Positions 10,604 to 26,329 of a stretch of 27,057 bases of DNA are shown piece after piece. The position numbers and the translations under genes were made by a program. The DNA is from a virus. Where the stretch lies: IMG/VR virus record IMGVR_UViG_3300045738_000920, positions 1-27,057 of that record, one strand, 5' to 3'. Below the pieces are notes generated by a model. That model saw only the letters and a program-made list of their open reading frames with translations. It ran no database searches and was not told the origin of the DNA. How positions within the stretch are numbered: the stretch's first letter is position 1; every line of letters starts with the position of its first letter.

Positions 10604-12181
10604 ATGCCCCCAGTAATGTTACAGCCGAAGCGCCTTGAGAGACCAATAGCTAGCGGCATCAGCGGGGTTACACAAGGCATCCTCAACAACGATCCCATCG
10701 GTATTCTCAACGCCGCACTGGGCGCTGGTGAGGCCCTGATCGAGGGCCATAAGAACCGCGAGGAAAAGGACGCCCAAGAAGTCCTCAGTAACCCTCTAGC
10801 CACTGAGGGTGAGATCAACGAGCTAATCAACGAGAGTACGCACAGCCTGAACCGCGTCAAGGCAGAGAACCGTCTGGGTGAGTGGCGGGCCTCCGAAGGC
10901 CGCAGTGCCCTCTTGGACGCTATGAGCAACACGGGATCTGTGGAGCAGGCCCGCACAGTCATGCTGGAGCATCAGGGCTTGGCCCTGCAGGAGGCAGGCT
11001 CAGCCGGCGAGCTTGCTGGTATCAAGGAAGCCTACGCCCAGTGGGCCCCTTCTATGCTCGACCAGGCCAGCGCACGACGTGTCGCCGAAACCGAGAGACA
11101 GGCACAGATCGTCACGACAGGTAGTCAGCGTACAGCTCTCCACGAGGGCGGACCACTGGCCTATGCCACCAACTTCTACGGGCAGCTCAGCGAAGAGGCC
11201 ATCACCTCTGGTGACGTCGACGCCTACGTTGTGTCCGCCGTGACCACCCTAGAGAACGAGTGGCTCGAAGGTGAAGGCATGGATGATATCCCGAACCCCC
11301 GTACGGACCTCATCCTGAACAGCATCGATGCTGTCATGGCGGACTCCGATGCGAACATGACGGACAAGAGCATCTCCCAGTTCCGCACCCTACAGAAGAA
11401 GATCCTGACGGCCGTAGGTGTCGACCGCGTATCAACAGCAAGAGACCAGCTAGACGCTGACAAGCAAACCCACCTCGATCTGATGAAGGAAATCAATGTT
11501 TTCAAGGCCGAGAACCCGGGTAAGGCTGTACCACAGACGGATATCGACGCAGTCCGCGAGGCTTCCTGGTCCCCCTCGATCCTCGAATCCTCCATGAATA
11601 TCATACACGCCGCACCTGAGAACGGGACCAAGACCGGCGTAGCTCACTCTGACATCGCCACCGATCAGCGCAAGCTGCTCGCACGCTCCCTGAACCTCCA
11701 CGAGGGTGGGACGCTCCTCATAACTGACAAAGGCTTTGCTGTTGCTCGGCAGGCCATGAACAACTTCGACGAGCTGTTGGAGACCCTCCCGTCCGAGATT
11801 GCTCAGGACCGTCCCGCCTTCCAGCGTCTACTAGCCGGCATGGCTAAGGACGCCAGAGAGGAAGCCGCCGACGAGATTAAGCGAATCGCCGCTCGCGACA
11901 AGGCCGACAGAGAAGATCACGAGGCTAAATACATCTTGCACCACCAAGAACTCCAAAACGCCCTCCCGCCCCTAGAGCCCACTGGAGGCTTCTTCGGCTT
12001 CGGAGAGTCTGTGCCCGGTAGGGACCCAGTCACAGCCAATAAAGAGACGGTTGCGCTGTACAAAGAACTCAGGGACAAAGAGGCCCCTGAACGTCGCATA
12101 CGCGCTATACGCGAACACGCGGCGTTCATGCAGCAATGGGCCGAAGAGCACGGCGCACCGATCATCCTCCAAACCTTTTAA
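10604..12181 (+). CDS. Internal virion (ejection) protein C, T7 gp15-like
   Basis: A 525-residue helical protein at the position of T7 gp15, the periplasmic part of the ejection channel. It is shorter than T7 gp15 (747 aa), while the next protein is longer than its T7 counterpart. The N-terminus (GISGVTQGILNNDPIGILNAA) is Gly/Ala-rich, and the rest is charged helices with Glu/Ala/Arg heptad-like patterns. Sequence similarity to gp15 is not obvious by eye; the call rests on position, length and helicity. It begins with AGGA upstream and ends 9 bases before the giant ejection protein. Confidence 0.75.
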   Translation: MPPVMLQPKRLERPIASGISGVTQGILNNDPIGILNAALGAGEALIEGHKNREEKDAQEVLSNPLATEGEINELINESTHSLNRVKAENRLGEWRASEGRSALLDAMSNTGSVEQARTVMLEHQGLALQEAGSAGELAGIKEAYAQWAPSMLDQASARRVAETERQAQIVTTGSQRTALHEGGPLAYATNFYGQLSEEAITSGDVDAYVVSAVTTLENEWLEGEGMDDIPNPRTDLILNSIDAVMADSDANMTDKSISQFRTLQKKILTAVGVDRVSTARDQLDADKQTHLDLMKEINVFKAENPGKAVPQTDIDAVREASWSPSILESSMNIIHAAPENGTKTGVAHSDIATDQRKLLARSLNLHEGGTLLITDKGFAVARQAMNNFDELLETLPSEIAQDRPAFQRLLAGMAKDAREEAADEIKRIAARDKADREDHEAKYILHHQELQNALPPLEPTGGFFGFGESVPGRDPVTANKETVALYKELRDKEAPERRIRAIREHAAFMQQWAEEHGAPIILQTF

Positions 12182-18520: not shown

Positions 18521-20035
18521 ATGGCGCACGTAACAACCAACGACATGTACGACGGTACTGGAGCACAGAATGATTTCGTGATTACGTTCTCGTACCAAGC
18601 CCGTAGCTTCATTGAGGTGTATGTGGACGCTGTGCTCCAGACCAGCGGCGGTACGGACTACGCATTCCTCAACAACACCACGATCCGCTTCGAGGCAGGC
18701 TCTATTCCGGGCGTAGGCACCGACAATGTCGAGATACGCCGTGTAACCTCCACAACCCCCTTGATCGATTGGGTCGCCGGCGCCTCCATCACCGACACCG
18801 ACCTAGACACCTCCCAGCTCCAACTCCTGAACATCGTCGAAGAACTACACAATGACTTCGCCGTGGGCCTGGGGAAATCTGGAGGCCACTGGGACGGTGA
18901 CGGCCTGAGGATCACCAACGTAGCCGCGCCCATCGCGGACACAGACGTTGCCACAAAGGCCTCGATCGCGGCACAGGTAACCGCGGCAGAGCTGGCAGAG
19001 ACCAACGCCGAGACGGCCGAGACCAATGCGGCCGCCTCAGCAGCCGCGGCTTCGACGTCAGAGACCAACGCTGCCACCTCTGAGACCAACGCAGCAGCCT
19101 CGGCTACCACGCTGCCGCATGGATTCATTAGCGGGCTGACTCTCTCCAGGGCCGCGAACGACGTCAGTCTGCCACTGAACAGCATCCAGATCGAAGCGGG
19201 CCGGTGTCGGGACGTGACGAACGCTGCGGACCTATCGGTTCCCGGACTTCCGAAGGTCAAGAGACTCGATGCCGCCTGCGCGAAGGGCTCGGGGAACGGA
19301 GGGTTCCCCTCGTCGCTCGTGGCGACAAGGACCCTCGGACAGTGGTATCGGGTCTTCATCATCGGGAGGAACGTGGACGACGAGGTCGAGGCGGGGTTCG
19401 ATGAACTCGATGCGACGGAGGCATCTAACCTTCGGGACGCCTTCAATACAATCGACGGCGACTCGTCGTGGGTTTACTACCGCCAGCTCGGCTACATCAA
19501 GATCGACGACACGACCATCGACGCTTATGTTCCGTTCATGAACCGGCTGGGAAGCCCTAACGAGTTTTGGTTCCTGCAAGGTAAGGGCGGAGGTGACTCT
19601 CTAGATGTAACGAGCGCTCCCACTCTATACACGGGTACGGGCGTTAAGGCGGAGAGGTTTATCACGCTGAACTACTGCCCGCCGAACGAGCAGGCCATCG
19701 TTAATCTAACCGCATGGTCGGCCCAGAACTCGGGGACTTGTAATTACTCGGGACTGGTACGTCCCACCGATGGGCCTTCTATCGCACCGAACAACACCGA
19801 CAGCTTGGACTGGTCGGCCAATCTGGCTAGCGGGAGCAACCTGAACACGAACTGGGTTACCGCGAACAATAAGAACCAACACTTTCACTTCAGGATGCAA
19901 CTCGATGATTCGCAGCAGTTCAACGAGCAGGTTTTTGGGATCTTAGGCACGAACTTGGCGACGTGTTACTCGACGCTGGGCTTCACCTTCGACCGAGATA
20001 CGCCCTTGGTAGAAGAAGAGGGGGGAGGGGAATAG
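18521..20035 (+). CDS. Tail fibre protein, T7 gp17-like N-terminus
   Basis: A 504-residue fibre. Residues 1 to ~120 match the T7 tail-fibre N-terminal domain that anchors fibres to the tail (TNDMYDGTGAQNDFVITFSY, then SFIEVYVD, TTIRFEAG, LQLLNIVEELHND). Residues ~155-197 are an Ala/Glu/Thr/Asn-rich coiled-coil stem with repeated ETNAA units. The rest is beta-rich and presumably binds the host receptor; I do not recognise its family. The last residues EEEGGGE are encoded by GA-rich DNA that also forms the ribosome-binding site of the next gene. The start follows a TAGGA stop/ribosome-binding overlap. Confidence 0.92.
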   Translation: MAHVTTNDMYDGTGAQNDFVITFSYQARSFIEVYVDAVLQTSGGTDYAFLNNTTIRFEAGSIPGVGTDNVEIRRVTSTTPLIDWVAGASITDTDLDTSQLQLLNIVEELHNDFAVGLGKSGGHWDGDGLRITNVAAPIADTDVATKASIAAQVTAAELAETNAETAETNAAASAAAASTSETNAATSETNAAASATTLPHGFISGLTLSRAANDVSLPLNSIQIEAGRCRDVTNAADLSVPGLPKVKRLDAACAKGSGNGGFPSSLVATRTLGQWYRVFIIGRNVDDEVEAGFDELDATEASNLRDAFNTIDGDSSWVYYRQLGYIKIDDTTIDAYVPFMNRLGSPNEFWFLQGKGGGDSLDVTSAPTLYTGTGVKAERFITLNYCPPNEQAIVNLTAWSAQNSGTCNYSGLVRPTDGPSIAPNNTDSLDWSANLASGSNLNTNWVTANNKNQHFHFRMQLDDSQQFNEQVFGILGTNLATCYSTLGFTFDRDTPLVEEEGGGE

Positions 20036-20229: not shown

Positions 20230-20751
20230 TTGGCAAAATCAGATCCAAAGGGCGGGCACCGCTCACAGACAGTTCACAATCTTCAGAACGGCGGACCCGG
20301 CGTCCTAGTCTGGCTCTTCCTCCAGTCCTACGCTACGGACATGTCGACGGCAGAAGCCACGGCATGGATGGGCGTTGTTGTCTGGCTGGCAAGCGCCATC
20401 GGTAAGTTCTGGAGTGAGCACGACCTCTCAACAAAACTACTGAAGAGGATTGGGCTTGGTGCCTTGCTTGTACTGATGACCACAAGCACCGGATGCGCTG
20501 GCTTTGCTGGCGTGTCTACCCCTCATGCCTTTGAAGGTATCAATGGCGAGACCATCGTCGCTTGTGATATCAAGGGCGTGGGCTTCAGCTTCGGCTCAGC
20601 AGACATCTGCCGCAATATCGAAGGCGGGCATATTTCAGAGTTCTTCAAGGACATGACCCTTGGGGTTGTGCGTGAAGCCTCACGAGTAGTCGGTGGAGTA
20701 CTCACCGGCATCGGCGGCCTTGGTACCGCCATAACCCCAGTCGACGAGTAG
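20230..20751 (+). CDS. Membrane protein, holin-like N-terminus plus signal/lipobox-like segment (TTG start)
   Basis: A 173-residue protein starting at TTG, with an excellent AGGAGG seven bases upstream whose first bases are part of the previous TAG stop. Hydrophobic segments lie at about 23-34, 43-58 and 74-94. The first two, between a basic N-terminus and the charged stretch KFWSEHDLSTKLLKR, look like a small holin. The third (KRIGLGALLVLMTTSTGC, Cys89) looks like a lipoprotein signal, though the -3 residue is Ser, not Leu. The remaining ~80 residues are soluble and Gly-rich. Two functions normally encoded by separate genes may be fused. No spanin-like coiled coil is seen. I infer a lysis role from context; a pure membrane or lipoprotein function is possible. 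Confidence 0.65.
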   Translation: MAKSDPKGGHRSQTVHNLQNGGPGVLVWLFLQSYATDMSTAEATAWMGVVVWLASAIGKFWSEHDLSTKLLKRIGLGALLVLMTTSTGCAGFAGVSTPHAFEGINGETIVACDIKGVGFSFGSADICRNIEGGHISEFFKDMTLGVVREASRVVGGVLTGIGGLGTAITPVDE

Positions 20752-20778: not shown

Positions 20779-21249
20779 ATGAAATTCATCACCACCATCC
20801 TGGCGATCCTCGCGATTGCCGTACCGGCCCTGGCCGACTCCGATCTCGACTGTCAGGTTGTTGCAGAAGCCATCAACCCGACCGAAGCTCAGGCTACGGA
20901 CGATTGGATCAACCTCACCGATGGCTCGTTCTCGACGACTGTTGCCGACGAAGACGAGTGGACCGCTCCGGTTGACCTTGTTGCTTGGGGCCTCCGCGCA
21001 ACTGTTGATGTTGCTCCCGCCGGAACCGATACGTGGGACATCTACCTCGTAGAAGTTGCCACAAACACCACCCTCCATTGTGAGATTTTGGGAACGGCCA
21101 CGTCCTGTACGGACACATCCTTCGCCCATCGTCCCGTCATCGAAGCTGGTAACGGCCTCACGGTTGTTGTAGACAGCGGCGACGGCGCCTCTGATCCAGC
21201 AGCAGCAGCAGAGCTGACCGTTTCGTTCTGCGTTAGCCGAAAGCGGTAG
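20779..21249 (+). CDS. Sec-exported protein 1, 156 aa (unknown function)
   Basis: A 156-residue protein with a textbook Sec signal peptide: KF at the N-terminus, hydrophobic core ITTILAILAIAV, and cleavage after ALA at residue 19. The mature part starts DSDLDC and is acidic and beta-rich. It has four cysteines (C25, then in LHCE, TSCT and SFCV), an even number consistent with two disulfides outside the cytoplasm. AAGGAAA lies upstream. It sits directly before the small terminase gene, at a position where T7 has no exported protein. I know of no homologue. It could be an envelope-modifying protein or a virion decoration protein exported by the infected cell. Confidence 0.75.
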   Translation: MKFITTILAILAIAVPALADSDLDCQVVAEAINPTEAQATDDWINLTDGSFSTTVADEDEWTAPVDLVAWGLRATVDVAPAGTDTWDIYLVEVATNTTLHCEILGTATSCTDTSFAHRPVIEAGNGLTVVVDSGDGASDPAAAAELTVSFCVSRKR

Positions 21250-21251
21250 AC

Positions 21252-21479
21252 ATGACCAACGAAGACATGCTCAAGATCCTCGGAGAGGGTATGGGCGAAG
21301 CAGCCCGCCTCCTAGTGGCGAAGGTCTCGGAAGGCTCAGCCTCCGCGGCCGATATTGGGCAGCTTCGGTCCATGTTCAAGGAGGCCGGCGGCACCCTTAC
21401 CCTCGGATTCTCACCAACCCCAGTGGGCGATACGGTCCTCGATTCCCTAAAGGACATAGACCCCGCTATGCTCAACTAG
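21252..21479 (+). CDS. terS: Terminase small subunit (DNA maturase A), T7 gp18-like
   Basis: A 75-residue protein (T7 gp18 has 89), located just upstream of the large terminase. The central helix LLVAKVSEGSASAADIGQLRS followed by MFKEAG has the pattern 'G-x-A-S-A-x-D-(L/I)-x-x-(A/L)-x-x-x-(L/F)-K' typical of small terminases of T7-like phages. It recognises concatemeric DNA and regulates TerL. Identity rests on this motif plus position. It starts two bases after the preceding stop. Confidence 0.75.
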   Translation: MTNEDMLKILGEGMGEAARLLVAKVSEGSASAADIGQLRSMFKEAGGTLTLGFSPTPVGDTVLDSLKDIDPAMLN

Positions 21480-21509
21480 ACCAGCGGGTCCCTCCCCCGC
21501 CTTGGTCCG

Positions 21510-21549
21510 CCCCCTCTGCGTCTGTCTCTCCCTACGGGCGCAGAGGGGG
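21510..21549 (+). other. Hairpin between terS and terL
   Basis: CCCCCTCTGCG (21510-21520) is perfectly complementary to CGCAGAGGGGG (21539-21549): an 11-bp stem with an 18-base pyrimidine-rich loop. No U-run follows, so it is not a classical intrinsic terminator. It fills most of the 101-base gap before terL and could act on mRNA (processing, termination by phage RNAP, translation control of terL). Confidence 0.7.
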
Positions 21550-21580
21550 TGTTCCGTGGGGGCAGCCAAGGAGGCCTTAG

Positions 21581-23302
21581 GTGACTGAAGACAAGCTCAG
21601 GGAATCGTTCCCTCTGTTCCTCATATACGTGTGGCGTTTCCTTGGGCTGCCCGATCCAACTCCCGTACAGTTGGACATGGCTAAGTTTCTCCAGCACGGC
21701 GGCCGGCGAATTATCGTCGAAGCGTTTCGGGGCGTTGGAAAGTCTTGGATCACGGCAGCCTTCGTTTGTTGGCTTCTGTATCGCAACAGGGAGGTCAAGG
21801 TCCTCGTGGTCTCGGCCTCCAAAGAACGCTCTGACTCGTTCTCGATCTTCACCAAGCGCCTCATCTGGGAAGTCCCGGTCCTTCAGTACCTGAAACCCTC
21901 TAGGAACCAAGGGGATCGAGTAGCCAATGTGGCCTTCGACGTCCGCGGCTGTAAACCCTCCCACGCACCCTCAGTAAAATCGGTGGGTATCAGGGGCCAG
22001 ATGACCGGCTCCCGCGCCGACTACGTCATCGCCGATGATGTCGAGGTGGTGAACAACTCCGAAACCGCTGCCCAACGGGAGAAGCTCCTAACGCTCGTCA
22101 GCGAGATGGGTGGAGCCATCCTCACCCCAGCCGCACAGGCGGGGACCGAGGGCGGTATTGTCTTCCTGGGGACACCACAGGTCGAGGACTCCATGTACAC
22201 CCACCTCCCAGACCGTGGCTACGAGCTGCAGGTGTGGCCCGCAGAGGTCCCCCAGTCCATCGAAACGTACGGTGGCTGTCTGGGCCCCTGCATTGTAAAA
22301 ATGCTCTCCGATGGCGTCCCAGCCGGTATACCGACCGAGCCCACACGCTTCGGTACTATTGAACTAGAAGAGCGGCGCCTAGAATACGGGGCAGCCGGCT
22401 ATGCCCTCCAGTTCCAACTGGATACTACGCTGGCCGATACTGACAAGAACCCACTGAAGCTCGCTGATTTCATCGTTGCGCGAACTGACGTGGACATCTG
22501 CCCGGACAAGTACGTGTGGGGCCGGGGCGAAGACCAGGAAATGGGGCACATCCCCCTAGTGGGCCTCACGGGCGACCGGTTCTTTCGAGCCCTGTTCGCC
22601 GCCGACGAGTGGTCACCCTACGAATTCTCACTCCTCTACATCGACCCCTCGGGCCGCGGTAAGGATCAGACCGGCTACTGCGTGGTCAAGTACCTGCACG
22701 GTATGATTGTGGTCCGCAAGTGGGGCGGCCTCGTGGGAGGATACGACGATAAAACTCTGACCAAACTGTCGACTATCGCCAAGCAGGAGAAGGTCGACAA
22801 GATCGTCATCGAGTCTAACTTCGGTGATGGCATGTACGCCCGCCTACTCCAGCCAGTCCTCGCAAGGGTCTCTGGGGGCGGCATCGGTATCGAGGATGAC
22901 CACGTCACAGGCCAGAAGGAACTACGGATCTGTGACAACCTTGAACCAGCCCTCGCGTCCCACCGGATCATCCTCGACGAGACACTGCTTGAGGAGGCCA
23001 CTGGGGACCGAACGGAAGCGCGGGATCACGAGGCGGTCCTGAAGACCCCCTTCTACCAGCTCACCCGGATCACCCGGGAGCGCGGTAGCCTCAAGTACGA
23101 CGATCACATCGACGCATTCGCCGGTGCTGTCCGCTGGTGTACCAGTAGGATGTCCAGGGACGTGAATATAGAAGCTACCGACAGAGAATCGGAGCGTGTC
23201 GACCAAATGCTGGAGGACTTCGTTAATGGAGTCTCTGTGTGGAAGCCGTCTCAGCCAGAGACAATATCAAAAAAGAACTGGGCACAGGTAATGCGCCCCT
23301 AG
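21581..23302 (+). CDS. terL: Terminase large subunit (DNA maturase B), T7 gp19-like
   Basis: A 573-residue packaging motor (T7 gp19 586 aa). The ATPase domain has Walker A AFRGVGKSW (48-56) after IIVEA, and Walker B YVIADDVE (148-155) with the catalytic acid after it. The C-terminal RNase H-like nuclease has the first acidic residue D355 in LLYIDPSGRGKDQTGY and the last at YDDHIDAF (D507/D508/D511). It translocates DNA into the prohead through the portal and cuts the concatemer. The start is GTG 21581, with AAGGAGG seven bases upstream. Its TAG stop overlaps the AGGAG of the next gene. Confidence 0.95.
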   Translation: MTEDKLRESFPLFLIYVWRFLGLPDPTPVQLDMAKFLQHGGRRIIVEAFRGVGKSWITAAFVCWLLYRNREVKVLVVSASKERSDSFSIFTKRLIWEVPVLQYLKPSRNQGDRVANVAFDVRGCKPSHAPSVKSVGIRGQMTGSRADYVIADDVEVVNNSETAAQREKLLTLVSEMGGAILTPAAQAGTEGGIVFLGTPQVEDSMYTHLPDRGYELQVWPAEVPQSIETYGGCLGPCIVKMLSDGVPAGIPTEPTRFGTIELEERRLEYGAAGYALQFQLDTTLADTDKNPLKLADFIVARTDVDICPDKYVWGRGEDQEMGHIPLVGLTGDRFFRALFAADEWSPYEFSLLYIDPSGRGKDQTGYCVVKYLHGMIVVRKWGGLVGGYDDKTLTKLSTIAKQEKVDKIVIESNFGDGMYARLLQPVLARVSGGGIGIEDDHVTGQKELRICDNLEPALASHRIILDETLLEEATGDRTEARDHEAVLKTPFYQLTRITRERGSLKYDDHIDAFAGAVRWCTSRMSRDVNIEATDRESERVDQMLEDFVNGVSVWKPSQPETISKKNWAQVMRP

Positions 23303-23313
23303 GAGAACAACAA

Positions 23314-23793
23314 ATGAAGTCCCTCACAATTATCCTCGGCGTTTTGCTCGTCGCCGGGGCGGCCTCCGCGGATAGTGAAGCGTGGATCTCGCATTGTAAC
23401 GAGTCGGGCACGGTCAACGATCACAATCTACAAGCGACTCCAGTAATCACCACCCTCGCCCCCGGTGAGCGTGCGTGCGCTGAGTCGGTTACGCAGACCA
23501 ATGAGACCTCCATACTACATGTCGGCCGCTGCTCCCATGTCGACATCTTTCAATACATCGACGCTGATGGTGACGGTATTGACAGTACGGTGACTGGACA
23601 GGTCCAGATATGCCCAGGAAACAATGACGATGACGACTCCTGCGACGACTTCGGTCTAGCAGCGTTTACGGCGGCAGATGTATTCCTTCAGGGACTAGGC
23701 GCCACGTACATACGTATAGCCTCCGGTGGGACCACCGATGCAGACCAAGTCCGATGGGAAGTACGCTGTGAAGGCAATGCGTCCAACAATTAA
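23314..23793 (+). CDS. Sec-exported protein 2, 159 aa, with Ca-binding-like loop
   Basis: A 159-residue protein with signal peptide (MKSLTIILGVLLVAGAASA, cleavage after residue 19). The mature part has six cysteines (C28, C55, C73, C100, C110 and one near the C-terminus), enough for three disulfides. The loop D83-A-D85-G-D87-G-I-D90 has the D-x-D-x-D-G spacing of EF-hand, dockerin and thrombospondin type-3 calcium sites. A second acidic run (NNDDDDSCDD) follows. I chose the ATG at 23314 because AGGAG precedes it and it puts the signal peptide at the N-terminus; the longer in-frame start at 23239 lies inside terL. No family recognised. Confidence 0.8.
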   Translation: MKSLTIILGVLLVAGAASADSEAWISHCNESGTVNDHNLQATPVITTLAPGERACAESVTQTNETSILHVGRCSHVDIFQYIDADGDGIDSTVTGQVQICPGNNDDDDSCDDFGLAAFTAADVFLQGLGATYIRIASGGTTDADQVRWEVRCEGNASNN

Positions 23794-23818
23794 TCTAACA
23801 ATAATGAGTGGTATACCC

Positions 23819-24313
23819 ATGTCTGCAAAGCTCAAGAACACAGCAATAACTAAGGCACTAGCCTTGGTTTCAATCGGTATACTATCCTTCGCCCACACGA
23901 CGTGGGCTAATGAGAGTATCAAGTATGGTCCGGTTGTATCGGGTGGTGGGACGTTGCGAGGACAAGTCGATGTAGTGGCGACGACCGCAACGACCGACAC
24001 ACCAACGGCCCACGAGATGCGCGGCAGTTGGCACACTGCAAGCAATACGGCCATCGTGACCTATACGCTGCCCGAGATCAGTACGATCGGAGTTGGCGCT
24101 AGTGCTTGCTTCTATGACTTGGATGCGACGGCGATCCTTACGATCGATGTCGATGCTGCGGACGTGATCGTACTAAACGGAGTCGATCTCGATGCCGGAG
24201 ACACGATTGACTCGCCCGGTGCGCGTGGTGATTTCATCTGCCTACTGGCGATCGACACTACGAATTGGCTCGCACTCGGCAGCTCGGGTGTCTGGGTCGA
24301 TGGAGGTCCATGA
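23819..24313 (+). CDS. Sec-exported protein 3, 164 aa
   Basis: A 164-residue protein with a signal peptide: basic SAKLKN start, core ALALVSIGILSFA, cleavage after TWA at about residue 30. The mature part is Thr/Val/Asp-rich beta sequence with two cysteines (ASACFYD and DFICLL). The end, with IVLNGVDLDAGDTIDSPGAR and then NWLALGSSGVWVDGG, has the look of a repeated fold in phage decoration and fibre-type proteins, where 'GTIDSPG...W..LG..G.W.DGG' occurs. Starts at 23777 and 23804 are also possible; 23819 has the imperfect site GAGTGG about seven bases upstream and gives the most normal signal peptide. Confidence 0.7.
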   Translation: MSAKLKNTAITKALALVSIGILSFAHTTWANESIKYGPVVSGGGTLRGQVDVVATTATTDTPTAHEMRGSWHTASNTAIVTYTLPEISTIGVGASACFYDLDATAILTIDVDAADVIVLNGVDLDAGDTIDSPGARGDFICLLAIDTTNWLALGSSGVWVDGGP

Positions 24314-24314
24314 C

Positions 24315-25196
24315 TTGAGAGTTCACCTCCTCGCGCTGCTCCTGCTCTTGCCAACGCTATGCGGTTGGCCGTCGATAAACATCGCGAACAGCAGCAACGC
24401 CTTCGCAGACTGTGACTTCGGCGGCGATCTCCCTACGCCGGTTCTTGCTTACAATTTCAACAGCGTCGACAGGACAGCGGGGTGTGGGTTTGGCTGTTCC
24501 ACAATATATCATGAAAGTTCAAGCGAGGCGGCGAGCATTAGTCCTACTGCTAACCATGAGATTCAATGTAGCACCGCTTTCATAGGACCGTATTGTGGCA
24601 CTCTGGTTGCGTCTGGTGGTCCGGGCCAAACCGGAGGCGCCTACTACGATCTATCTACCGGATCGGGAACGGCACACCGGGGTTTTGTGAAAGCGGTCGA
24701 CGCAACGGAAGAAGACTATTCAGGCGACAACGAATTTACCCTCTCGATATTTGTTAAGCTGGACGGTAAAAGTTCATTTGGAACTTATCTTGTATCCAAG
24801 GGGTTCGAGTTCGAGCTTACCGGCAACCCTTGGGATAGTGATGGCACCCCCTTTGTTTATGACTCGCATCTTTGCGCGAATCTCATCGCGGACACTTCGG
24901 TCAACTGTGCGTGGCTTGCTGGAACGGATATGCTGGAGTGGGACGCGGACGGTGTTTGGACTCATTACGCCTACGTCTACGACGGACCCACCTCTCATAA
25001 AATCTACAAAAATGGGGTGTTAGGTTTTGAAAGAACGGGAACCTCATCGACCATCGGAAACTTAGGGAACGGGCTGTCCATTGGGGCGGTGAATACATGG
25101 GGCGTCGATGGCGGAATAGATGAGTTTTCAATCTTCTCTGAGGCGTTGGATGCCAGTCAAATCCTGGCGCTCTCGACCTGTGTGGTTCCAGAATGA
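24315..25196 (+). CDS. Sec-exported LamG/concanavalin-like domain protein (TTG start)
   Basis: A 293-residue protein with a TTG start. GGAGGT lies seven bases before this TTG, whereas the ATG at 24300 precedes the ribosome-binding site. The signal peptide is MRVHLLALLLLLPTL and onward, cleaved probably after AFA at residue 31. The mature protein has eight cysteines. From about residue 145 it has LamG/concanavalin A-like lectin features: NEFTLSIFVKLD, WTHYAYVYDGPTSHKIYKNG, VLGFERTG, and GGIDEFSIFSEALDASQI with a final TC. This jelly-roll fold binds sugars or proteins outside cells. Its start is two bases after the previous stop. DNA is visibly more AT-rich than in the structural genes. Confidence 0.8.
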   Translation: MRVHLLALLLLLPTLCGWPSINIANSSNAFADCDFGGDLPTPVLAYNFNSVDRTAGCGFGCSTIYHESSSEAASISPTANHEIQCSTAFIGPYCGTLVASGGPGQTGGAYYDLSTGSGTAHRGFVKAVDATEEDYSGDNEFTLSIFVKLDGKSSFGTYLVSKGFEFELTGNPWDSDGTPFVYDSHLCANLIADTSVNCAWLAGTDMLEWDADGVWTHYAYVYDGPTSHKIYKNGVLGFERTGTSSTIGNLGNGLSIGAVNTWGVDGGIDEFSIFSEALDASQILALSTCVVPE

Positions 25197-25207
25197 TAGG
25201 ACGAAAC

Positions 25208-25510
25208 ATGGAGAGGTACTTAATCGCAATTATGATCCTGATCGCGACCGCTACTCTCGCGCAGGCGATTACGCCAAAACACTACAGCCCCGGGTTTAGC
25301 GTGTACGACGAGGGCTTTGTCGAGGGCCTATATGATATGTCTGTTTGGGTTGTTTCTGAGTCTGGGTTCAGTAACGGCGATAACACTTGCACGTTACTTG
25401 TCAGCATGGACTGTCAGTTGACCGCCACCTTTAGAGACGGCGCGGAGCACATCATAGCTTGCGATGAAGAGGTACCTACCGGCTCCACCTTCATCGCGGC
25501 CTGCCGCTAA
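25208..25510 (+). CDS. Sec-exported protein 5, 100 aa
   Basis: A 100-residue protein with signal peptide MERYLIAIMILIATATLAQA (cleavage after residue 20). The mature part is ~80 residues with four cysteines (DNTCTL, SMDCQL, IIACDE and the penultimate residue C99), a pattern expected for two disulfides. AGGA lies six bases before the ATG at 25208; a start at 25193 would overlap the ribosome-binding site. No family recognised. It is the last gene of the exported cluster and precedes the repeat-rich segment. Confidence 0.75.
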   Translation: MERYLIAIMILIATATLAQAITPKHYSPGFSVYDEGFVEGLYDMSVWVVSESGFSNGDNTCTLLVSMDCQLTATFRDGAEHIIACDEEVPTGSTFIAACR

Positions 25511-25652: not shown

Positions 25653-25844
25653 GTGAAGAACAGGAAGACCCTACGTAAGTACAAGCCCACCCTCAAGATG
25701 ATCAAGGCCATCGAGGCCATCGAGGTCTGGTATCCCCAGAGGCCCGCACCACCCCTTGGGGTTGTTGGAGGGGCCAACGCCCAGACCTACATAGTAACCC
25801 CCACGCTGATAGAGCTGAAGGGTGGCTGGGGACGCTGGGGGTAG
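25653..25844 (+). CDS. Possible small basic protein, 63 aa (GTG start)
   Basis: A 63-residue reading frame with GTG start and AGAGGT five bases upstream. The N-terminus is strongly basic (KNRKTLRKYKPTLKMIKA), then helical, then Pro/Gly-rich. I do not recognise it. It is isolated between non-coding sequences and the C-terminal half is low complexity (GGWGRWG), so it may not be a real gene. The Shine-Dalgarno and basic helix are the only support. Confidence 0.4.
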   Translation: MKNRKTLRKYKPTLKMIKAIEAIEVWYPQRPAPPLGVVGGANAQTYIVTPTLIELKGGWGRWG

Positions 25845-26027
25845 GAGGGGGTTTTGGGGAATTTCATTGTCCCCGATTGAACACCCTTACGTAATACGTC
25901 TCCGGGCGATTTCCCCCCATACGGGCGCCGGAAGGGCCCGATACCCGCAGGGGACATCCTGGTCCCCTCGGGCCGCAGGGGGCGAGCACGCTCCACCTTA
26001 GCGCGTGGGGCGGCGAACGGCCACAGC

Positions 26028-26053
26028 GGGGGGGCGGGGTGGCGGGGTGGCGG
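26028..26053 (+). repeat. G-run cluster with CGGGGTGG tandem repeat
   Basis: Seven G (26028-26034) are followed by CGGGGTGG twice in tandem (26035-26050) and CGG. The four G-runs of three or more, with short loops, could form a G-quadruplex on the + strand. Confidence 0.6.
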
Positions 26054-26104
26054 TCGGGATCCCCTAAGCCCTCAGCACCTCCAGTGGGCCACAGGGGCCC
26101 CGAG

Positions 26105-26140
26105 GGGGATGCGGGGACCGCGGGGGATGCGGGGGATGCG
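26105..26140 (+). repeat. Four tandem 9-mers, GGGGATGCG type
   Basis: Units at 26105-26113, 26123-26131 and 26132-26140 are identical GGGGATGCG; the second unit (26114-26122) is the variant GGGACCGCG. Together with the upstream G-runs this is the most repetitive stretch in the window. Confidence 0.75.
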
Positions 26141-26253
26141 GACGCGCGGCGGGGTGTCGGACCTTTATTTTTCGACTCCCACCCGAGGGGAAAGCCTGGA
26201 GCGACTCTCACGAATAAATCGACATCGGGCCCGATAATAAGTAGCTGATTTGC

Positions 26254-26282
26254 TTCACTTTTCGCTCCATTTACCGTAGAGT
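26254..26282 (+). promoter_or_regulatory. Candidate sigma70-type early promoter
   Basis: TTCACT (26254-26259) and TAGAGT (26277-26282) are 17 bases apart and each match four of six consensus bases. The surrounding stretch is AT-richer than the flanking G-rich DNA. It lies 48 bases before the first gene after the genome-end segment, where T7-like phages place promoters for the host RNA polymerase. A small hairpin GGGCG/CGCCC (26299-26312) lies in the leader. Confidence 0.45.
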
Positions 26283-26329
26283 CTGGACTCCACCAGCGGG
26301 GCGGAATCGCCCGAGAGGAATAAAAAACC

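Follow-up and report, generated by a model that had tools for sequence, protein, structure and literature searches.

A cluster of predicted exported, cysteine-rich proteins around the terminase genes of a T7-type phage

Five signal-peptide genes in a late block

The window analysed here, a linear record of 27,057 bases from an uncultured bacterial virus and probably only part of a longer genome, has a T7-type gene order. Genes for an exonuclease, a nucleotide kinase, a protease-like product, the head-tail connector, scaffold, capsid and tail proteins precede those for internal virion proteins (one of 2106 aa), a T7-type fibre, small membrane-type proteins, and the small and large terminase subunits (TerS and TerL). 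The connector, capsid, tail, internal virion proteins, fibre N-domain and TerL are T7-like (Autographivirales-type) markers. A 525 aa protein encoded amid the internal virion proteins (10604-12181) had no PHROG match.

Around the terminase genes lie five plus-strand genes, A to E, packed so tightly that 1 to 27 nt separate each from the adjoining genes (Table 1). An initial annotation had described five Sec-type signal-peptide genes near the terminase, and all five open reading frames are there. We called signal peptides with a home-made score of n-, h- and c-regions, using minus-strand open reading frames as the control. Genes A to E are exactly the five top-scoring plus-strand frames of the 27 kb window. 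Charged n-region, hydrophobic core and A-x-A-like site are good in four of the five and weaker in D, and the A-x-A site is exact in four of five. Minus-strand frames score up to 10.9, so the score alone does not separate C and D from chance; their signal peptides rest on cleavage sites, position and company. The weakest is that of D, where the AFA site lies ~15 residues past the hydrophobic core and the score itself favoured an earlier site. By codon usage the coding frame is the best fit for all five genes, narrowly for C (0.547 versus 0.532 off frame) and D (0.495 versus 0.472).

Table 1. Features from the tail fibre to the end of the cassette. A slash marks the predicted cleavage site; Cys counts are for mature proteins.
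Feature	Coordinates	Strand	Start or ribosome site	Score	Predicted signal-peptide end	Other properties
Ordinary T7-type tail fibre	18521..20035	+				N-terminal tail-binding domain, Phage_T7_tail PF03906, E 2.4e-23
Membrane protein, neighbour outside the five	20230..20751	+	TTG start, AGGAGG			173 aa; lipobox-like TSTGC site
Gene A	20779..21249	+	AAGGA	13.8	MKFITTILAILAIAVPALA/DSD (ALA/D)	156 aa; 4 Cys; possibly jelly-roll-like; ends 2 nt 5' of TerS
Small terminase subunit (TerS)	21252..21479	+				PHROG terminase small subunit match, weak, E 0.057
Large terminase subunit (TerL), T7 type	21581..23302	+				phrog_38, E 5e-100; Terminase-T7_RNaseH-like, E 1e-33
Gene B	23314..23793	+	TAGGAG	13.3	MKSLTIILGVLLVAGAASA/DSE (ASA/D)	159 aa; 6 Cys; begins 11 nt 3' of TerL
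Gene C	23819..24313	+	no obvious Shine-Dalgarno-like site	11.1	TTWA/NES (TWA/N)	164 aa; 2 Cys
Gene D	24315..25196	+	TTG start; GGAGGT 7 nt 5' of TTG 24315, within 3' end of C	10.4	NAFA/DC (AFA/D)	293 aa; 8 Cys; LamG/ConA-like domain
Gene E	25208..25510	+	AGGA	12.6	MERYLIAIMILIATATLAQA/ITP (AQA/I)	100 aa; 4 Cys

The density of signal peptides at this locus is unusual. They begin 5 of 8 genes here, whereas across related viral contigs 22 of the 1360 plus-strand genes close to TerL start in this way, a count that excludes L002, L004 and L188, discussed below (Fisher p 1.1e-7, indicative because the test was chosen post hoc and the loci are mutually related). This rarity bears out the earlier statement that T7-type phages normally lack such a secretome.

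Cysteine content points the same way. The mature counts first reported for A to E hold, the ninth cysteine of D falling inside its signal peptide. That annotation had read disulfides from the even numbers; the content is indeed of disulfide type, but what carries that conclusion is enrichment, as five even counts alone arise by chance about once in 32. Over 872 aa the five proteins have 25 cysteines, whereas the products of the window's virion genes have 13 over 5704 aa (~13-fold; Fisher p 8e-14); both the capsid protein and the internal protein of 2106 aa are cysteine-free. Enrichment is stronger evidence of an oxidising compartment than even counts by themselves.

It is nevertheless conceivable that the starts were mis-called, or that the hydrophobic N-termini stay uncleaved and anchor the proteins in the membrane, in either case with no release into the periplasm. 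The home-made score is the only score behind the calls, minus-strand frames reach values close to those of C and D, a clear ribosome site is missing from C, and the c-region of D is long. We regard this explanation as very improbable, given the exact A-x-A sites, the preservation of the site of A in a relative (see below), the fit of the cysteines to an oxidising compartment, and a locus density far above that of relatives. That the five are exported, disulfide-type accessory proteins is, in our judgement, well supported and likely.

Tightly packed same-strand genes behind the fibre and around TerL form the late block of T7-type phages, so A to E are expected to be expressed late. Direct repeats, examined for signs of a phage promoter family, were all of coding type or low complexity, and a scan for sigma-70 promoters and terminators found no excess over chance. 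Lysogenic-conversion genes were provisionally set aside as an identity for the five, which lie inside the late block of a window (a fragment record) with no visible integrase. The 3' side of the cassette holds GC-rich DNA and a few short open reading frames. Positions 25800-26300, rich in GC and G-runs and devoid of convincing genes, may represent a terminus or a site of packaging.

The terminase slot in related phages

In a tree of 168 TerL sequences, the window forms one clade with two other loci, L002 and L188 (support 0.996), while a third locus of interest, L004, is placed elsewhere. All three relatives, near and distant, encode at least two exported cysteine-rich proteins starting just 3' of TerL. 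TerS has a homologue in L002 at the equivalent position (phmmer E 4.5e-22). The suggestion that this is an accessory locus collecting exported proteins thus gains support: the nearest TerL relatives fill the equivalent slot with exported cysteine-rich proteins of mostly different sequence.

Gene A is the clearest case of shared content. Its syntenic homologue L002:4838-5413, 5' of TerS, matches with a BLAST E of ~2e-11 (within a small set) and an identity of about 30-35%. Because neither the signal peptide nor any of the four cysteines has been lost in the homologue at this divergence, export of A looks selected. Gene C has a candidate homologue directly 3' of TerL in L004 (7668-8123), with a weak alignment z of 3.1. 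By sequence comparison, then, the slot recurs and its content mostly changes, with A alone clearly shared and C possibly so. Such scant conservation outside A is as expected for proteins that face a variable surface.

The remaining contents differ from locus to locus. In L002, an exported, beta-rich-looking protein of 749 aa begins 18 nt after the TerL match. Two exported proteins lie 3' of TerL in L188, one of 255 aa and one of 498 aa, each with 12 mature cysteines, the shorter with fibre-shaft-like GDFTCTTGVCTLD repeats. L004, a 39.9 kb record, has five signal-peptide genes in total around TerL; a lipoprotein and an exported cysteine-rich 117 aa protein lie on the 5' side, and exported proteins of 151, 291, 547 and 617 aa on the 3' side. 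The 617 aa protein has a weak Beta_helix match (E 0.0075, under the curated cut-off). Elsewhere, on its minus strand, the same record encodes beside a collagen-type fibre a protein that resembles DUF459/SGNH members and begins with a signal-peptide-like sequence (L118:8023-8748; E 3e-5, under the curated cut-off). No T7-type fibre gene is seen in the part of this record that runs from the internal virion protein to the small genes 5' of TerL. The 173 aa neighbour of gene A in the window looks by sequence like a holin-like part fused to a lipoprotein, the two being separate genes in L004 (4873-5043 and 5040-5330). The C-terminal tail of the neighbour resembles the short L004 lipoprotein (L004:5040-5330), the two having a C...IEGG region in common by eye that is non-significant by BLAST.

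Beyond these loci, the cassette was absent from five cultivated relatives with 46-48% TerL identity (Bordetella phage BB8, Roseobacter phage CRP-804, Rhizobium phages RHEph01 and Pasto, and Limnohabitans phage YIMV22061); RHEph01 has one lipoprotein-like gene 3' of TerL. Among bacterial genomes, TerL was found only in Marinobacter and Maritalea (44-47%), with no exported cassette nearby. Single-protein or two-sequence searches of viral_contigs found no relatives of the window's A, B or C, and a search with the L002 copy of A recovered nothing but that copy. A tblastn search of 50,697 phage records, run for B, C, D, the L002 copy of A, the L188 255 aa protein, the L004 617 aa protein and the L002 749 aa protein, gave no match.

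Small signal-peptide proteins do occur near TerL in other phages. Those of phrog_650, conserved in the cyanopodoviruses P-SSP7, P-SSP3, P-GSP1 and S-RIP2, are likewise small proteins of T7-like marine phages, and their genes lie 5' of TerL in L023-L028 (for example L027:2176-2538). Unlike the cassette, phrog_650 is a single gene without cysteines, and none of the five matches it. A separate set of small exported proteins with a VCKRVEGC...YCPTC-type pattern was seen in L076 (2110-2388), L049, L073, L089, L091 and L106, ~0.3 kb 5' of the TerL match in most loci and 1 kb in L049; the L076 copy had no match in phage records.

The genes just 5' of the cassette raise the question of lysis. Between the fibre and the TerS/TerL block, L002 and L188 carry lysis-type genes and the window small membrane-type genes, so the five might remodel the envelope as part of lysis. 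This seems improbable to us: no peptidoglycan hydrolase, SAR domain or spanin feature was found in any of the five, L002 and L188 already have spanin-like (Rz/Rz1-like) gene pairs, and L188 has a GH108 endolysin. The spanin-like pairs suggest a diderm host for the L002/L188 clade. The GH108-type endolysin gene of L188 (2514-3182) lies directly 5' of TerL, the position held in the window by gene A and TerS.

Fibre-like and lectin-like features of the five proteins

The proteins appeared unrelated in the initial annotation, and shuffle tests agree, finding no significant homology between any two; nor do the five have a docking domain in common. Gene D has the firmest assignment, a Laminin_G_3 domain (PF13385, E 1.7e-14; 54.7 bits against a curated cut-off of 27.6), along with weak matches to virion structural PHROGs. 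Genes B and E match no Pfam or PHROG family and could not be assigned a fold, A and C match no Pfam or PHROG fibre family, and none of the five an exclusion family in PHROGs. Sequence searches of A and D against solved structures gave no informative match.

Low-confidence structure models add hints for A and C. Gene A is modelled as a beta-sandwich (pLDDT 54.6), and with this query the best matches in a viral-model fold search (Foldseek E 2.8e-5) include tail-fibre, collagen-repeat and tropism-determinant proteins. A second look in the PDB returned various beta-sandwiches at Z 5.5-7.2, which may be background (Z <8). Jelly-roll cement proteins, receptor-binding protein (RBP) heads and fibres are among them, including the cement proteins of Helicobacter phages KHP30/40, a Pam1 capsid chain, and RBP heads or fibres of Tuc2009 and phage 7-7-1. 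For C, whose model is poorer (pLDDT 46.7), Foldseek finds 191 BFVD models at E<=0.001, the best at E 4.5e-7, and those with names among the matches listed are mostly tail or fibre proteins. Gene C is thus possibly a tail-fibre-type module, and A and C may be detached tail-fibre tips. A fibre-type fold for the two is weakly suggested by these models, with phage tail-fibre tips and C1q/TNF-like jelly-roll or collagen-linked fibre modules as possible counterparts. Known fibre modules, however, are virion parts with an anchoring N-terminus, where A and C have a signal peptide, and the PF03906 virion-attachment domain of the ordinary fibre was not found by Pfam in any of the five.

These likenesses could mean that the proteins, freed at lysis, join heads or tails from outside as extra adhesins. 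The modelled resemblance of A to cement proteins, a capsid chain and RBP heads or fibres, and of A and C to fibre modules, would suit such decoration. T7-like virions, however, are assembled in the cytoplasm, where exported proteins would be absent; the five have no common docking domain, and the Z values are in the background range. We think this role improbable.

The main rival is a polysaccharide-processing kit, in which exported lectin- and fibre-like modules would attach to capsule, LPS or biofilm polymer and cleave it, giving progeny a way out after lysis. The Pfam family of D is named for the lectin/glucanase superfamily, and relatives have the beta-helix-like, DUF459/SGNH-like and beta-rich-looking exported proteins described above. 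None of the window's five has an identified catalytic residue, four of them (A, B, C and E) measure just 80-140 aa when mature, and the beta-helix and DUF459 matches are under cut-off and belong to relatives, not to the window. Soluble phage depolymerases are free proteins that act on surface polymer after lysis and, as a rule, are related to tailspikes and free of a signal peptide; the five have signal peptides and no identified catalytic domain. Compared with LamG/ConA-like lectin/glucanase proteins, D, a candidate binder, shares the domain and adds a signal peptide and a cysteine-rich N-terminal part. Overall we consider polysaccharide processing unlikely, though worth keeping in view.

A possible late brake on re-adsorption

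The explanation we favour treats the five genes as a late-placed secretome cassette of fibre-tip and lectin-type modules, in which a Sec signal peptide would replace the virion-anchoring domain. The set looks other than an arbitrary mix: A and C resemble fibre/jelly-roll modules in low-confidence models, D is LamG-like, and relatives contribute beta-helix-like and hydrolase-like members. That such modules unite the set is something we infer. The proteins would be made late alongside TerL, carried by Sec over the inner membrane and oxidised in the periplasm. There they would build up until freed at lysis, and would then bind envelope or surface glycans or receptors. Progeny phage would in this way be spared loss by re-adsorption to the dying cell, its fragments, or neighbours already infected. 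Taken whole, as late exported envelope or surface binders that limit re-adsorption or superinfection, this account is tentative, somewhat nearer to doubtful than to probable.

The closest precedent comes from phage T5, whose periplasmic protein Llp has a Cys11-Cys58 disulfide and blocks the receptor FhuA (PMC9586334). Llp supports the favoured reading as an instance of a periplasmic, disulfide-bonded, receptor-blocking phage protein. Like the five, Llp and the Cor-type superinfection-exclusion lipoproteins are small, phage-encoded and exported. Llp, the best-known exclusion protein in that compartment, is however single, early and lipidated, whereas the five sit late in the gene order and have no standard lipobox (none in A, B, C or E; in the PTLC of D the -1 position is taken by L and not by the usual G/A/S). 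Adsorption blocking by the five is proposed by analogy with Llp and Cor only. Their late right-end position argues against early receptor masking of the Llp kind, but not against a block on late or post-lysis re-adsorption, and it suits one that keeps progeny off debris and neighbours. One point against the re-adsorption account is that in a diderm host the proteins would stay periplasmic until lysis, barring a further secretion step.

A bolder version, which we hold to be unlikely, is that a T7-like lineage turned fibre-tip and lectin modules into fast-changing, Sec-exported, disulfide-stabilised soluble adhesins that rival its own virions for receptors, or coat virions and neighbour cells after lysis.

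Apart from lysis proteins, toxins and a small number of exclusion lipoproteins, tailed phages are not known to export much. The first annotation knew of no named system of this kind, and none was found in the literature searched. Exported phage proteins as such are already known (Llp, Cor, phrog_650); the set beside the terminase may represent a poorly known class of them that works at the host envelope or beyond the cell. The pattern is firm and recurrent, and its function we infer from sequence. If the reading is true, soluble proteins are a means by which certain phages that appear lytic affect the envelope or surroundings of their hosts, and the cassette would supply a defined gene set with which to test exclusion, control of re-adsorption and polymer degradation.
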